Assembly (NCBI RefSeq): GCF_014084105.1
Contig: NZ_CP048289.1
Span: forward strand, 5,527,922-5,591,921
Source of the DNA: Streptacidiphilus sp. P02-A3a
GTDB lineage: Bacteria; Actinomycetota; Actinomycetes; Streptomycetales; Streptomycetaceae
Length of the DNA stretch: 64,000 bases
Reading direction: 5' to 3'
A model generated the notes under the pieces. The model ran no database searches and had not been told where the DNA came from. It saw only the letters and a program-made list of their open reading frames with translations. The translations under genes were made by a program, and so were the position numbers. Shown here one piece after another: positions 2,839 through 11,639 of this stretch (positions are counted from its first letter, which is position 1; every line of letters starts with the position of its first letter).

Positions 2839-4974
2839 CTATCGGTGCTCCGCCGCCCCGGCGATCCGGCGGGAGATCTCCCCCGGCCGGGCCGGGCGGC
2901 CGAAGTGCCACCCCTGTGCCCAGTCGCACCCCATCTGCCGCAGCCGCTCCGCGTGCTCCGGCGTCTCCACCTCCTCGGCGGTCACCGTGAGCCCGAGGGT
3001 GTGCGCCAGCGAGACCACCGCGCCGACGATCCGCCAACCGAGCGACTCGTCCCGGCTCGGGTCGTGCAGGTCGGCGACGAAGGAGCCGGCGATCTTCAGT
3101 CCGGACACCGGCAGGTCCCGCAGGTAGGCGAGGTTGGACCAGCCGGTACCGAAGTCGTCCACGGCCAGCGAGACGCCCATGTCCACCAGCGAGTGCAGCA
3201 CCTGCATCGACTCGTCGTCCCGGCCGACCACCGCGCTCTCGGTGATCTCCAGCTGGAGCAGCCCCGGGTCGAGGCCGGTGGACCGCAGGATCCGCTGGAC
3301 GTCCGACACCAGCCCGGCGTTGCGGGTCTGCCGCACCGCCAGGTTGACGTTGACCTGCGGCGCGAACCGGCCGAAGCGGCGCGACCACTCGGCCGCCTGG
3401 CCGCAGGCCTGCTCCAGCACCCAGCGGCCGAGCGGCATGATCAGCCCGGTCTCCTCGGCGGTGGCCACGAACTCGTCCGGTCCGAGCACCCCCAACTGCG
3501 GGTGCCGCCAGCGCACCAGGGCCTCCACCGCCACCAGCGAACCGTCGGCCAGCGCGCACAGCGGCTGGTAGTCGACGAAGAACTCGCCCCGGTCCAGGGC
3601 CACCGGCATCCGCACCGACACGGCGTAGCGGCTGACCTCGCGGGCGTTGTGCCTGGGGTCGTACAGCGTCCACCGGCCGCGCCCCTGCTCCTTCGCCCGG
3701 TACAGGGTGAGGTCCGCCGCCCGGACCGCCGCCATCGGCGTGGTGGTGGCCACCGTCCGCTCCAGCACCCCGACGCTGGCCCCGACCGACAGCCGGTGGT
3801 CGCCGACGGTCACCGGCCGGGACAGGGCGCCGAGCACGGTCTTGGCGACGGCCACCGCCTCCTGCTCGCCGCTGGTGTCGGCCAGCAGCACCACGAACTC
3901 GTCACCGCCGAGCCGGGCCACCAGATGGCCCATCGGGGTGAGCGCGGCCGACAGCCGCCCGGCCACGGCGGTCAGCAGCTGGTCCCCGGTCTCGTGGCCC
4001 AGACTGTCGTTGATGATCTTGAACCCGTCCAGGTCGACGTAGCAGAGCGCGAACCTGGCGTCCGGATCCGGCGCGGCGAAGACCTCCTCCAGCCGCTCGA
4101 AGAAGGCCGCCCGGTTCGGCAGCCCGGTCAGCGGGTCGTGCGTGGCCTGGTGCCGCAGCCGTTCCTGCAGCCGGTAGCGGTCGGTGATGTCCTCCAGCAT
4201 CGCCACCTGGTACTGCGGAGTGCCGTCGGCGTCCCTGATCAGCGAGACGGTCAGGTGCGTCCAGACCACCCCGCCGTCGCGCCGGTAGTACGGCTTGTCG
4301 AACTGGAAGTAGTCCCGCTTGCCGCTGATCAGCTCCCCGTACGCCTCCCAGACCCCGGGCGTGTCCTCCGGGTGCACCAGGTCGTCCACCCGCTGCCCCT
4401 CCAGGTCCTCCGGGCGCGCGCCGAAGAGCTCCATCAGCGCCGGGTTCACCTCCAGGATGGTGCCCTCGACGTCGCCGATGCCGATGCCGATCGCCGCGCT
4501 CTCGAACAGCGCCCGGAACCGCGCCTCGGATGCCTGTAGCGCCCGCTCGGCGTCCCGGCGGGCGGTGTCCGCCGCCAGCCGGATCGACTCCTGCTCGCGC
4601 AGCGTCCGCTCGCGCAGCGCCACCGCCCAGCCCGCCGCGAAGGCCCCGGCCAGCGCCGGTCCCCGGTCGTCGCTCAGCGGCCGCTCCTGGAGCAGCTCCA
4701 CCACCCGGGCCAGCAGCGCCGGGTCGGTGTAGTGGGCGTGCACCAGCATCGCCCCGGCCTCGGCCGCCGGGGCGGTGTCGAACGGCTCCTCGGTCCGGGC
4801 CCGGTTCAGCAGCGAGGTGGTGCGGCTGACCAGCCGCCGCCGGGTGCCCGGGGTCAGTGTGCCGCCGTGCCCGGAGTGCAGCAGCTCGCCCCAGGCGTCC
4901 CGGAACCGGGCCGCCGGGTCCTCCTCCTCCCGCGCGTCCTCACGCCTGCCGCCCATCGGCGGTGAGGCGTTCAC
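2839..4974 (-). CDS. PAS-GGDEF-EAL cyclic-di-GMP turnover protein
   Basis: The 711-residue protein makes and/or degrades c-di-GMP, the second messenger controlling streptomycete development. Numbered from the GTG start, the order is: an N-terminal alpha-helical region (1-150), a PAS domain with PAC (~150-265; FRALFESAAIG to MLEDITDRY), GGDEF (~275-435; RLGGDEFVVLL intact near 358) and EAL (~445-700; VEALVRW intact near 485, plus QLEITES, AVDDFGTG, QGWHFGRP). Two oddities are visible. No RxxD inhibitory site lies before GGDEF. The EAL metal-site motif usually written KID reads KIA (LKIAGSFV). The GTG at 4974 shares four bases with the upstream methyltransferase stop, which indicates translational coupling. 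An upstream start at 5052 would overlap that gene by 80 bases. The architecture resembles streptomycete RmdA-type proteins, but I do not claim orthology. Confidence 0.9.
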   Translation of the reverse strand: MNASPPMGGRREDAREEEDPAARFRDAWGELLHSGHGGTLTPGTRRRLVSRTTSLLNRARTEEPFDTAPAAEAGAMLVHAHYTDPALLARVVELLQERPLSDDRGPALAGAFAAGWAVALRERTLREQESIRLAADTARRDAERALQASEARFRALFESAAIGIGIGDVEGTILEVNPALMELFGARPEDLEGQRVDDLVHPEDTPGVWEAYGELISGKRDYFQFDKPYYRRDGGVVWTHLTVSLIRDADGTPQYQVAMLEDITDRYRLQERLRHQATHDPLTGLPNRAAFFERLEEVFAAPDPDARFALCYVDLDGFKIINDSLGHETGDQLLTAVAGRLSAALTPMGHLVARLGGDEFVVLLADTSGEQEAVAVAKTVLGALSRPVTVGDHRLSVGASVGVLERTVATTTPMAAVRAADLTLYRAKEQGRGRWTLYDPRHNAREVSRYAVSVRMPVALDRGEFFVDYQPLCALADGSLVAVEALVRWRHPQLGVLGPDEFVATAEETGLIMPLGRWVLEQACGQAAEWSRRFGRFAPQVNVNLAVRQTRNAGLVSDVQRILRSTGLDPGLLQLEITESAVVGRDDESMQVLHSLVDMGVSLAVDDFGTGWSNLAYLRDLPVSGLKIAGSFVADLHDPSRDESLGWRIVGAVVSLAHTLGLTVTAEEVETPEHAERLRQMGCDWAQGWHFGRPARPGEISRRIAGAAEHR

Positions 4975-5777
4975 GTCCGGCGCCCCACCCCTGCCATACC
5001 GGTCATCCGCTCCGGGTGCGGACCGACCGAGCCGGGGGTCTCCGGGTTCCACTCGGAGAGGTACACCACCCCGGGCTCGACCAGCTCGAAGCCGTCGAAG
5101 AAGCCGGTGATCTGCTCCCGGTTGCGCATGGTGAGCGGGGTCGGCGTGCGCCGGTACAGGTCCTGGTGCGGACCGGCCTGGTCCGGTCGGCCCTCCAGCG
5201 AGGCGTGCGAGAGCACCAGGTAGCTGCCCGGCGGCAGCGCGTCCCGCAACTGGCCGACCACGCGCTCCGGCTGCTCCTCGTCGCTGATGAAGTGCAGCAT
5301 CGCCACCAGCAGCACCGCGACCGGCTCACCGGGGCGCAGCAGTTCCTCCGCCGCGGGCTGGGCCAGCAGCGCCGCCGGGTCGCGCAGGTCCGCCTCGACC
5401 ACCTCGCTCAGCGGGTCGTCGGCCAGCAGCAGCCGGCTGTGCGCCACCGCCACCGGATCCCGGTCCACGTAGACCACCCGGGCCCGGGGTTCCACCTCGC
5501 GGGCGATCTCGTGCACCGCGCCGAAGGTCGGGATGCCGGAGCCGATGTCCAGGAACCGGGTGACGCCCTGCTCGGCGATGTACTGGACGGCGCGGCGCAG
5601 GAAGGCCCGGTTGGCCCGCATGATCAGCGGAAGTTCCGGCCACAGCTCGATGGCCTTGCGGGCCATCCGCCGGTCCGCCTCGAAGTTGTGCGAACCGCCG
5701 AGGTAGTAGTCGTAGACCCGGGCGGCGTTCGGCGTCTCGGGATCCGTTCCGGCAGGCACCCATGTCGGTCGCGTCAT
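4971..5777 (-). CDS. DUF574-family SAM-dependent methyltransferase
   Basis: This 268-residue protein begins MTRPTWVPAG at 5777, with AAAGGG upstream. It has the actinobacterial DUF574/methyltransferase 56 signature: ARVYDYYLGGSHNFEADR, then the SAM-binding loop FLDIGSGIPTFG, then VYVDRDPVAVAHS. A Rossmann-type methyltransferase fold is therefore expected; the substrate is unknown for this family. Its last four bases overlap the start of the PAS-GGDEF-EAL gene, so the two are probably co-translated. A paralogue lies at 10797-11639 in the same orientation. The 95 bases to the upstream transporter gene may hold its own promoter. Confidence 0.88.
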   Translation of the reverse strand: MTRPTWVPAGTDPETPNAARVYDYYLGGSHNFEADRRMARKAIELWPELPLIMRANRAFLRRAVQYIAEQGVTRFLDIGSGIPTFGAVHEIAREVEPRARVVYVDRDPVAVAHSRLLLADDPLSEVVEADLRDPAALLAQPAAEELLRPGEPVAVLLVAMLHFISDEEQPERVVGQLRDALPPGSYLVLSHASLEGRPDQAGPHQDLYRRTPTPLTMRNREQITGFFDGFELVEPGVVYLSEWNPETPGSVGPHPERMTGMAGVGRRT

Positions 5778-5872
5778 GCCGCACCCTTTCGCCGGACAGA
5801 GATGGGAAAACGGACAACAGACACCAAAAGCGTCCGCCCGATCCCCTCCCGGCGCAACCGCTTCCGCCCGGA

Positions 5873-7432
5873 TCAGCGGGGGTCCTCCCGCTCCGACGGG
5901 ACCGGCACGGCGGACTCCTCCGGTTCCTCCTGGCGACCGCGCTCCAGGCCGAACAGCGCCACCACCGCCGCCACCGCCATGATCCCGGCCATCGCGTAGA
6001 AGACCGCGCGGGTGGCGTAGGCGAAGTCGAGCCGGATGAAGTCCGGGATGTCCGCGGTGCCGCCGGTGCCGCCCTGCGACTGCGAGATGCCGGAGGCCTC
6101 CGCCGAGGCCTGCCCGGCGGGCATGCCCCGGGCGATCAGCGAGGCGGTCACCCGGGAGCGGAACTGCGACACCAGCACCGTCCCGAGGATCGCCAGGCCC
6201 AGGCTGGCCGCGTAGTTCCGCACCGTCTGGGTGATCCCGGTGGCCTCGCCGTACGACAGCCGGGACGCCCGGCTCACCGCGTCGGTGCTGGCCGGGCTGA
6301 GCATGAAGCCCATGCCCGCCCCGGCCAGCACCACGTACCAGATCTGGGAGTTGAAGTTCAGCTGGGTGACCTTGCCCGCCCACAGCGCGAAGCCGACGGC
6401 GCACAGGGCGCAGCCGAGGGTCACCGGGCGCTTGGCGCCGCCCCGGTCCAGCATCCGGCCGCCGAGCTGCGAGGCGACCACGAAGCCGAGGAAGAAGTAG
6501 AGCAGGTAGAGCCCCGCCTGCGAGGCCGTCTTCCCGAGCGCGATCTGCGCGTACTCGCTGGCGAAGAAGAACACCGGGATGAACACCAGCATGGCGATGC
6601 CCAGCACCAGGTTCTCCACCGCGAACGCCCGGATCCGGAAGATGTCCACCTTGATCAGCGGCGACGCGGTCCGCCGCTCGACCAGCACGAAGGCCACCAG
6701 CAGCAGCAGTCCGGCGGCGATGCACAGACCGATCCCGGGGTTGCGCCAGCCCCAGATCTGCGACTGCTGGAAGCCGAACACGCTCAGCCCTACCCCGGAC
6801 GCGATCAGGGCCAGCCCCCGGTAGTCCATCGGGGCGGGCCGGTGCTCGGTCACCGGCTTGGCCAGCGCGATCAGCACCAGCGCGACCACCGCCACCGGGA
6901 TGTTCACCCAGAAGATGGCCCGCCAGGTCCACTGGGTGAGGTATCCGCCGAGGATCGGGCCGATCGCGGTCAGGCCCCCGGCGATGCCGAAGAACACCGC
7001 CAGCGCCCGGCCGCGCTCGCGCAGCGCGAAGGTCTGCACCACGATCCCCAGCGCCGCCGGGAACATGATCGCCCCGCCAGCCCCCTGGACCACCCGGAAC
7101 AGCACGATCCAGGCCTCGGCCAGGCTCCCCTTGGGCGTCAGCCCGCACATCGCCGACGCCCCGGCGAAGACCAGCACCCCGAGCACCACCATCTTCCGGT
7201 GCCCGACGGTGTCGGCCAGCCGCCCGCCGAAGGCGAACAGCGCCGCCAGCGCCATCAGGTAGGCGTTCACCGCCCACTGCACCCCGGTCGCGCTCAGCCC
7301 CAGCTCCCGCTGGATCTCCGGCACCGCGATGGAGACGATGGTCTGGTCGATGAAGGTCATCGCGACCGCGAAGATCATCGCAGCGAGCACGAGATTCCTC
7401 GGTCGGCCCCCGGACCCTGCGCTGACGCTCAT
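5873..7432 (-). CDS. DHA2-family MFS drug exporter (14 TM)
   Basis: The 519-residue membrane protein resembles EmrB/QacA H+-antiporters. TM1 contains AVAMTFIDQTIVSIAVPEIQ, the motif typical of 14-TM DHA2 exporters. The loop FGGRLADTVGHRK is MFS motif A, and GLTAIGPILGGYLT is motif C, found in antiporters. The C-terminus is charged and cytoplasmic. I chose the ATG at 7432 because GGAG sits five bases upstream; the in-frame GTG two codons earlier would leave no spacing. Its likely role is proton-driven efflux of a hydrophobic drug or metabolite. No regulator is directly adjacent; the nearest TetR gene is at 8622. Confidence 0.9.
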   Translation of the reverse strand: MSVSAGSGGRPRNLVLAAMIFAVAMTFIDQTIVSIAVPEIQRELGLSATGVQWAVNAYLMALAALFAFGGRLADTVGHRKMVVLGVLVFAGASAMCGLTPKGSLAEAWIVLFRVVQGAGGAIMFPAALGIVVQTFALRERGRALAVFFGIAGGLTAIGPILGGYLTQWTWRAIFWVNIPVAVVALVLIALAKPVTEHRPAPMDYRGLALIASGVGLSVFGFQQSQIWGWRNPGIGLCIAAGLLLLVAFVLVERRTASPLIKVDIFRIRAFAVENLVLGIAMLVFIPVFFFASEYAQIALGKTASQAGLYLLYFFLGFVVASQLGGRMLDRGGAKRPVTLGCALCAVGFALWAGKVTQLNFNSQIWYVVLAGAGMGFMLSPASTDAVSRASRLSYGEATGITQTVRNYAASLGLAILGTVLVSQFRSRVTASLIARGMPAGQASAEASGISQSQGGTGGTADIPDFIRLDFAYATRAVFYAMAGIMAVAAVVALFGLERGRQEEPEESAVPVPSEREDPR

Positions 7433-7645
7433 GTCCACTCCTCGGCTGCTCCGTCGGCCGCTGCCGGCCCGCTGCCCGACTGCGCGTGTCCCGGCGTGCC
7501 GGTGTGTCCCCGGTCACAGTCACGCTCTCCCACACTCGGTCAAGCAGCGCGTCCCTGCCACCCACCGGACCAGGTTGGCGGCACCCCACCGCCGGATCGG
7601 GGCCCCGAATCCACCGAAGCCGGGGCACATCGGCATGATGGGTTC

Positions 7646-10796: not shown

Positions 10797-11639
10797 TCAG
10801 CCCAGCTTCCGGGCCAGACCGCCGTGCATGTGCACATGCGCGTCCGGGGTCGCCGCGGCCTCGGCGTCCGGGTGCCACCGGTGCACCAGGCACACGCCGG
10901 GCTCGACCAGCTCCAGCCCCCGGAACAGCAGCTCCACCTCGGACCGGTCACGGATCCGCTCCGGGATGCCGCGCGCCGCGTAGGCGGCGATGCCCTTGGT
11001 GACCTCCTCCGGCGCGCTGTCGGCGGTGACCGTCGACAGCGCCAGGAAGCTGCCCGGAGCCAGCTCCGACATCAGCCCGTCGATGATCGCGTGCGCCGCG
11101 TCCTCGTCGGTCACGAACTGCAGCACCGCGATCAGGCTCAGCGCGACCGGCTGCTCCAGGTCGAGCGTGGCCCGCAGCGCGGGCGCGTCGAGGATCGCCC
11201 GGGCGTCGTGCAGGTCGGCGTCGATGTAGGTGGTCCGCCCCTCCGGCGTACTGGTCAGCAGCGCCCGGGCGTGCACCAGCACCATGGGGTCGTTGTCCAC
11301 GTAGGCGACGCGCGCGGTCGGGTCCACCGCCTGCGCCACCTCGTGCAGGTTCGGCGAGGTCGGCAGGCCGGTCCCGATGTCCAGGAACTGGCGGATGCCC
11401 TCCTTCGCCGCGAGGTGGTGGGTCATCCGGCGCATGAAGCTGCGGTTGGCCCGCATCGAGTTCGGCAGATTGGGCCAGACGGCGGCGATCTCGGCGGACG
11501 CCTCACGGTCGGCCGGGAAGTTGTCCTTGCCGCCGAGCAGATAGTCGTAAATGCGCGCCGAGTGCGGCACGTCCGTCCGCAGTTCCACCGACGGCTTGTC
11601 GTTCTCGTTCGGCTTCATCCAGTCCAACCCGTCAGCCAC
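10797..11639 (-). CDS. DUF574-family SAM-dependent methyltransferase
   Basis: The 280-residue protein is a paralogue of the product at 4971-5777. It shares ARIYDYLLGGKDNFPADRE, RQFLDIGTGLPTSPN and AYVDNDPMVLVHA, and a similar C-terminal LELVEPGVCLVHRW. The SAM-binding fold is clear; the substrate is unknown. I chose the GTG at 11639, which has AAGGG about nine bases upstream; the internal ATG at 11618 lacks a ribosome site. No partner gene is coupled to it, unlike the first copy. The upstream 745 bases contain no gene I can support. Confidence 0.87.
   Translation of the reverse strand: MADGLDWMKPNENDKPSVELRTDVPHSARIYDYLLGGKDNFPADREASAEIAAVWPNLPNSMRANRSFMRRMTHHLAAKEGIRQFLDIGTGLPTSPNLHEVAQAVDPTARVAYVDNDPMVLVHARALLTSTPEGRTTYIDADLHDARAILDAPALRATLDLEQPVALSLIAVLQFVTDEDAAHAIIDGLMSELAPGSFLALSTVTADSAPEEVTKGIAAYAARGIPERIRDRSEVELLFRGLELVEPGVCLVHRWHPDAEAAATPDAHVHMHGGLARKLG

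Follow-up and report, generated by a model that had tools for sequence, protein, structure and literature searches.

A DUF574 methyltransferase gene paired with a probable rmdA ortholog in Streptacidiphilus sp. P02-A3a and its relatives

The window analyzed here is a stretch of 64,000 nucleotides from Streptacidiphilus sp. P02-A3a (RefSeq assembly GCF_014084105.1, contig NZ_CP048289.1, positions 5,527,922 to 5,591,921), in which two genes follow each other on the minus strand (Table 1). The first encodes a methyltransferase of the DUF574 family (PF04672, E 1.9e-90) and runs from an ATG to a TGA. The second is the next gene after it and encodes a PAS-GGDEF-EAL protein (Pfam E-values of 3.8e-14 for PAS_4, 6.1e-40 for GGDEF and 3.8e-66 for EAL), an enzyme of cyclic di-GMP (c-di-GMP), which helps decide the timing of sporulation and antibiotic making in Streptomyces and relatives. 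At the junction the minus-strand bases read GTGA, and the end of the methyltransferase gene thus holds the start codon of the PAS-GGDEF-EAL gene. An earlier note on this DNA had pointed out this four-base overlap of stop and GTG start, correctly, and the segment it described covers the pair exactly. The linkage of the two genes was found to be conserved, specific to one DUF574 subfamily and to an N-terminal domain of the c-di-GMP enzyme, and present in three orientations and with different catalytic parts. The arrangement makes it very probable that the methyltransferase and the enzyme, here assigned to RmdA, act as one functional unit.

Conservation was examined in a sample of 150 genomes of the family. 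The PAS-GGDEF-EAL enzyme was present in 142, and in 133 of these a methyltransferase gene lay directly upstream on the same strand, apparently full length in 131, in pieces over several frames in one (G070) and reduced to a remnant in another (G017). The total of 133 combines 101 of 109 family loci read directly, 31 of 31 genomes assessed by coordinate comparison, and G070, assessed via its named twin L119; 100 of the 101 directly read pairs had a methyltransferase covering at least 220 model positions, the other being the remnant. The neighbours are therefore together in most relatives, where the earlier note had named their separation as the outcome that would speak against coupling. Co-occurrence of enzyme and methyltransferase across genomes was also strong (Fisher p 4.6e-9, relatedness ignored). 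The eight genomes without the enzyme (G005, G007, G013, G022, G026, G035, G037 and G109), in which the best matches begin at residue 138 or later, gave no methyltransferase match at E <= 1e-80, but the same cut-off passed over the true neighbours of G099 and G134, and the absence is therefore not firm.

G087 and G111 each carry two diverged complete copies of the pair, with every methyltransferase beside its own RmdA, and RmdA adjoins the methyltransferase in all four of G043, G090, G120 and G135, in the last of which RmdA spans two frames. Among the named loci a DUF574 gene lay upstream in 25 of 28, the others being L108 (at a contig edge), L115 and L123; the closest named matches were from Streptacidiphilus (L119, 90% over the best segment; L121, 81%) and Kitasatospora. 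A few Streptomyces-group genomes (loci L053, L113 and L114) hold a whole pair that is Kitasatospora-like (RmdA 68-70% and methyltransferase 71-78% identical to those of the window), a pattern in the sequences that suggests transfer of the pair as a unit.

The overlap itself recurs. At the 101 family loci read directly, the upstream frame closes with TGA in every pair, and a GTG or ATG start occupies the -4 position in 84, or 86 when TTG starts or -1 overlaps are counted. The -4 start is retained in orthologs down to about 45-50% identity. An alternative in-frame GTG for the PAS-GGDEF-EAL protein lies earlier, at 5052; GTG 4974 is preferred because GTG or ATG recurs at the same position in those 84 loci. 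As a control, 59 other DUF574 genes were inspected: RTGA closes 10 of them, and in 5 of those 10 the -4 frame stays open for 60 codons or more. One of the five (L228) is actually a member of the same two-gene module. A Shine-Dalgarno-like word of four bases was found at -16 to -4 in 59 of the 86 overlap loci, as a raw count with no chance level.

The PAS-GGDEF-EAL protein of the window is probably an RmdA ortholog. This assignment is based upon genomic context rather than alignment to a named RmdA, namely the methyltransferase neighbour (compare SCO0929 and SCO0928), the occurrence of a CdgA-like protein in genomes without the window-type enzyme (all eight such family genomes still hold a CdgA-like match), and position in several near-complete genomes. 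The gene lies about 0.7-1.3 Mb from the contig end in several near-complete Streptomyces-type genomes (e.g. G076, G079, G121 and G143), and SCO0928, judged by its number, presumably also lies near the chromosome end. The window genome does not fit the positional argument, its copy lying at 5.53 of 9.33 Mb. The highest 19-residue hydropathy mean of the window protein, 1.46, indicates no membrane helix by the usual threshold of 1.6. Catalytic positions were well retained across 45 aligned orthologs: EAL residues E484, N544, E576, D606, D607, K627, E670 and Q687 and GGDEF motif residues G357-F360 were invariant, and G356 was present in 43. The GGDEF motif was readable by script at 141 of 144 loci, and none of these 141 showed an RxxD inhibitory site. 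At the KxD position of the EAL domain the window protein has alanine (KIA); the orthologs have Ala (24), Asp (19) or Ser (2), with KLD or KID in most Streptomyces-type proteins. This is a lineage difference inside the ortholog group and does not define the group. Among 25 of the 37 NCBIfam families matched by the window enzyme, no equivalog reached its cut-off.

In published work RmdA is a cytosolic protein of PAS-PAC-GGDEF-EAL architecture that 82 of 93 Streptomyces possess (PMC6205966); like the window-type enzyme, it is missing from some species that retain other GGDEF-EAL proteins. S. venezuelae is stated to have five GGDEF-EAL proteins (PMC13232838), and Streptomyces RmdA is characterized as a phosphodiesterase with residual cyclase activity (PMC13232838, PMC7911125), being bifunctional with phosphodiesterase activity dominant in S. 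ghanaensis (PMC7911125). Deletion of rmdA delayed development in S. venezuelae and S. coelicolor (PMC6205966). The window protein resembles RmdA (SCO0928/vnz33675/ssfg_00725) in its PAS-GGDEF-EAL arrangement, lack of a transmembrane stretch, intact GGDEF and EAL key residues and adjoining methyltransferase gene; it differs in that Streptomyces-type orthologs are about 45-53% identical to it and in having KIA rather than KLD or KID. CdgA (SCO2817/ssfg_04551) has the same PAS-GGDEF-EAL architecture (PMC7911125), and the presumed CdgA matches are about 50% identical to the window protein from residue 134 onward, but they are without the N-terminal domain and have no DUF574 gene within 1.5-kb flanks. 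Identity as CdgA is disfavoured by the methyltransferase neighbour, the distribution, and the near-end position in several Streptomyces-type genomes.

The part of the enzyme that accompanies the methyltransferase appears to be a helical domain of about 130 residues at its N-terminus, hereafter the N-domain. It gave no consistent Pfam match even at E <= 1, and its AlphaFold model is confident and helical (predicted local distance difference test, pLDDT, 90.5). It was found at every family locus read (109) and at every named locus (28), and occurred once per genome in each of the seven bearing genomes among eight family genomes scanned. A profile of the N-domain, applied to 394 genomes of the wider class, was positive in 70. 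Of the 41 N-domain loci read outside the family, 28 had a DUF574 neighbour, which was upstream and co-directional in 21, divergent in 3 (L331, L333 and L340) and convergent in 4 (L344, L346, L347 and L348; the L346 methyltransferase is broken and was counted but not placed in the tree described below). Chance adjacency was ruled out, since a DUF574 flanking gene is expected at about 0.3% per locus, against the 28 of 41 and 133 of 142 observed. The enzymes in question vary, and include PAS-GGDEF-EAL proteins, GGDEF-EAL proteins without PAS (L300, L301 and L321), proteins with GGDEF and no same-frame EAL, and PAS-EAL proteins without GGDEF (e.g. L337 and L344). G239 has three N-domain genes (L198, L300 and L301), each with a DUF574 gene upstream, and G377 also has three, with DUF574 at L319 and none at L200 or L320. 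The window genome, a 9.33-Mb contig, holds seven GGDEF matches. Among 28 GGDEF/EAL loci without the N-domain (6 from this genome and 22 from others), none had a DUF574 neighbour within flanks of 1.5 kb beyond the match, the flanks of the N-domain loci being about 3 kb; L285 and L286 had been removed from an initial 30 control loci as they contain the N-domain. Because DUF574 neighbours occurred at 28 of 41 loci with the N-domain vs 0 of 28 without it (Fisher p 1.2e-9, relatedness ignored), the N-domain is a better predictor of the methyltransferase than are the catalytic domains. The earlier note suggested a tie between methylation and c-di-GMP signalling, and the recurrence of the linkage outside the family, in three gene orientations, makes this likely.

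The methyltransferases of the pairs are likewise a subset of their family. A maximum-likelihood tree of 114 DUF574 proteins showed a split (support 100/98) between 58 proteins encoded beside N-domain genes, together with four others, and the remaining 52; the linked proteins also came out together in a quicker, earlier tree of 170 rows. L228, L232 and L268 were left out of the 114, the first two being the DUF574 genes of the L300 and L301 loci, where they are followed by N-domain-GGDEF-EAL enzymes. An exclusive clade of the 58 was rejected (approximately unbiased test, p-AU 0.001) because the four other proteins (L234, L212 of this genome, L238 and L267) sit among them. The module methyltransferases are accordingly a supported split with four exceptions and not an exclusive clade. 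The notion that any DUF574 protein will do as a partner was rejected, as the tree separates the module methyltransferases from the others. Residues 29-30 are S-H on the module side (S in 51 and H30 in 54 of 58) vs K-D on the other (44 and 42 of 52), and A110 is present in 58 of 58, where 51 of 52 of the rest have V. The DUF574 proteins placed from the enzyme-less genomes G005 and G109, four from each (the fifth of G109 being L268), all fell on the other side. The methyltransferases of L344, L347 and L348 form their own clade, and their genes lie tail-to-tail at the 3' end of genes for PAS-EAL N-domain proteins without a GGDEF match.

The window genome has 13 DUF574 loci (16 matches, in which two halves make up one gene and two fall below the cut-off). 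A second DUF574 methyltransferase of the window, at 10806-11594 (PF04672, 2.3e-106), belongs to the other side of the tree. One base after the DUF574 gene at L212 comes a gene that at its start looks, by eye, like a glycerophosphodiester phosphodiesterase.

Table 1. Features of the gene pair, in window coordinates.
Feature	Position	Strand	Basis or remark
Methyltransferase, DUF574/Methyltransf_19 (PF04672), S-adenosylmethionine-dependent, 268 aa	4971..5777	-	Pfam, AlphaFold
Probable RmdA ortholog, N-terminal helical domain-PAS-GGDEF-EAL, 711 aa, GTG start	2839..4974	-	Pfam; orthology by context
GTGA start-stop overlap of both genes	4971..4974	-	kept in 84/101 family loci
G-rich, putative Shine-Dalgarno-like stretch within the methyltransferase gene end	4983..4992	-	read from sequence
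N-terminal helical domain, residues about 20-150, no Pfam family	4525..4917	-	constant DUF574-gene partner
PAS domain, residues about 152-268	4171..4521	-	Pfam
GGDEF domain, motif intact, no RxxD inhibitory site	3676..4146	-	Pfam and alignment
EAL domain	2893..3606	-	Pfam and alignment
KIA (KLD/KID in most Streptomyces-type orthologs)	3088..3096	-	alignment
Gap between upstream major facilitator superfamily (MFS) gene (5873-7438) and methyltransferase start; presumed promoter of the pair	5778..5872	-	

Downstream of the pair, at about 1778-2720, a minus-strand frame begins with a glycosyltransferase-like start (SLVVPARDEARNI, by eye) and continues with an ATP-grasp-like stretch (CPSase_L_D2, E 1.9e-4); it looks like two truncated genes run together.

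In the literature rmdA appears operonic with vnz33670 (PMC6205966), and S. coelicolor has beside SCO0928, by locus number, SCO0929, annotated as a SAM-dependent (S-adenosylmethionine-dependent) methyltransferase that AtrA may regulate negatively (PMC13170358). From their position and the family loci examined, SCO0929 and vnz33670 are presumably DUF574 proteins. For S. lividans, SCO0929 is also listed as probably a direct target of activation by AdpA (Fc 0.419, with a site predicted at -201; PMC4021200). In MII mycelium its level is somewhat raised (log2 ratio 0.53; PMC6135851). Upstream words were counted at 90 of the 101 loci, the rest having no clear methyltransferase start or falling between identity groups. 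Within 140 nt upstream of the methyltransferase, GATCAGTAG occurred at 24 of 39 Streptomyces-type loci vs 0.0 in shuffles, and TAGGA[AG] at 23 of 51 Streptacidiphilus/Kitasatospora-type loci vs 2.0 in shuffles. The position of GATCAGTAG fits one promoter ahead of both genes, and both words may be regarded as candidate promoter or operator elements. An alternative is co-regulation alone, in which a shared promoter serves two genes needed at the same developmental stage that have no biochemical link. The proposed control of SCO0929 by AdpA and AtrA agrees with this, as does G017, where the methyltransferase has decayed and the GTGA junction with rmdA has been kept, as if the junction mattered for expression. 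We nevertheless consider it rather unlikely, given that at the 3 divergent and 4 convergent loci outside the family the neighbours are kept without one co-directional operon, that the pair occurs twice in two genomes, and that the methyltransferase subfamily and the N-domain go together.

The window methyltransferase scores 303.5 bits against PF04672 (cut-off 26) over residues 9-267. No other Pfam family was found in it at E <= 0.001, including no LCMT family model. It retains D77, G79, G81, P83, D105 and D130, residues conserved in DUF574, which we take to be the SAM site, as in class I methyltransferases. The AlphaFold model (pLDDT 91.0) is closest to the solved DUF574 structures 2qe6 (Tfu_2867; Z 36.3) and 3giw (Z 34.9; 3giw/3go4 being SAV_2177), which share family and fold with it at 43% and 39% identity, respectively, across the aligned part; 2qe6 differs in having GGKDNF where the window methyltransferase has GGSHNF. 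Outside DUF574 the similar folds include Ppm1/LCMT-1, which are leucine carboxyl methyltransferases (best rows at Z 18.9-20.3, with 10-13% identity), TYW4, and the small-molecule enzymes EgtD (Z 16.8), AzeJ (16.6) and SgvM (16.3). The DUF574 protein 3giw is reported to hold a ligand that resembles phenylalanine and whose identity is not established (PMC2954221). The fold comparisons and this ligand hint at an acceptor that may be either a small molecule (carboxylate or amine) or a carboxyl group of a protein. If the latter, the methyltransferase could modify RmdA itself or another protein of the c-di-GMP network, in the manner of the carboxyl methyltransferases that act in chemotaxis or on protein phosphatase 2A. 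The rank of Ppm1/LCMT-1 among the folds outside DUF574 speaks for protein methylation, for which the helical N-domain would be an obvious substrate or dock. Set against it are the small-molecule enzymes among the similar folds, the phenylalanine-like ligand of 3giw, and the few conserved positions of the N-domain, where no acceptor side chain stands out because only M1, W28, L88, A113 and A138 are invariant in 27 aligned rows. Protein methylation of this kind seems unlikely.

The explanation favoured here is a conserved two-gene signalling module, consisting of rmdA and its own dedicated DUF574 methyltransferase. Judging from gene order, transcription would begin upstream of the methyltransferase, and RmdA would be translated from the same message by way of the start-stop overlap. 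The methyltransferase would transfer a methyl group from SAM to an acceptor, for which a small molecule bearing a carboxylate or amine is the likeliest candidate. The N-domain of RmdA may then read the acceptor, the methylated acceptor or the methyltransferase itself, and this reading would set the strength of c-di-GMP degradation (or synthesis) by RmdA and, in turn, the timing of development. Methylation would act on RmdA, and not the reverse. The mechanism as a whole, with methylation read by the N-domain to set c-di-GMP turnover, is offered tentatively, as a proposal somewhat short of an even prospect. Gene pairing alone does not give the direction, and RmdA might instead control methylation as its output, through local c-di-GMP or its linear product pGpG or by binding the methyltransferase, much as RmdB of S. 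venezuelae is reported to act partly through direct contact with a target protein (PMC13232838). By Pfam the methyltransferase holds its methyltransferase domain only. Input fits better than output because what stays constant in the RmdA partner is its N-domain and neither GGDEF nor EAL, and the reverse link is accordingly judged improbable.

Several observations weigh against a module of this kind. RmdA can evidently do without the methyltransferase, because nine enzyme-bearing genomes have no adjoining methyltransferase (G003, G004, G010, G015, G018, G020, G031, G038 and G140) and G017 has only a decayed remnant of 95 codons without a SAM motif (L054, about 2189-2477), which stands before an intact RmdA and still ends in GTGA at its start. 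Four of the nine belong to one genus (g4), and at the G015 locus (L285, which holds the N-domain) the view reaches just 1.5 kb past the match. Outside the family, 13 of 41 N-domain loci had no DUF574 gene in view. The earlier note took the overlap to imply one translational unit; this is likely for the family as a whole, given its recurrence there, and does not extend to every locus, as the genes do not overlap at 15 of the 101 family loci (most being separated by 49-274 nt) and, outside the family, just 2 of 21 co-directional loci combined GTGA with a long open frame. In PMC6205966 the wider context of rmdA, three genes each side, is described as not highly conserved, alone among bldD, cdgB, cdgC, rmdA and rmdB, a statement that agrees with 133 pairings in 142 genomes if just the one adjacent gene is kept. 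In S. ghanaensis, deletion of rmdA is described as causing no visible developmental defect (PMC7911125). The solved structures nearest to the N-domain are 3zta, a stressosome protein (Z 9.4), then 2bnl, the N-terminal domain of RsbR (Z 7.7), and, at a Z of about 6, globin-coupled sensors. The helical arrangement of 3zta and 2bnl is alike, with no Pfam sequence match, and kinship is not claimable because these values are below the Z of about 13 advised for helical models; a Foldseek search with the N-domain model gave no match at E <= 0.001. Literature searches found no substrate, product or reaction of a DUF574 enzyme.

The rmdA half of the module is known already, and the operon has been mentioned in passing; literature searches found no account of the wider pairing, the methyltransferase subfamily, the N-domain or their joint distribution. 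Signals that bind the PAS-PAC domain of RmdA have been suggested for S. ghanaensis (PMC7911125). It is possible, if somewhat more speculative than the mechanism proposed for RmdA, that this DUF574 subfamily makes or erases a methylated signal which the helical N-domain, acting as a sensor, plugs into varied c-di-GMP enzymes (PAS-GGDEF-EAL, GGDEF-EAL, PAS-GGDEF and PAS-EAL) across several actinobacterial families, and that in Streptomyces this signal is the missing input of RmdA. These bacteria have many DUF574 enzymes, as the 13 loci of this genome illustrate. Constructs of rmdA may differ from one another by the presence or absence of the methyltransferase gene, and ones with vnz33670 exist (PMC6205966). 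The pairing gives each partner a hypothesis about the other: the methyltransferase becomes a candidate source of the signal for RmdA, and the N-domain, rather than PAS, the place to look for its reception.

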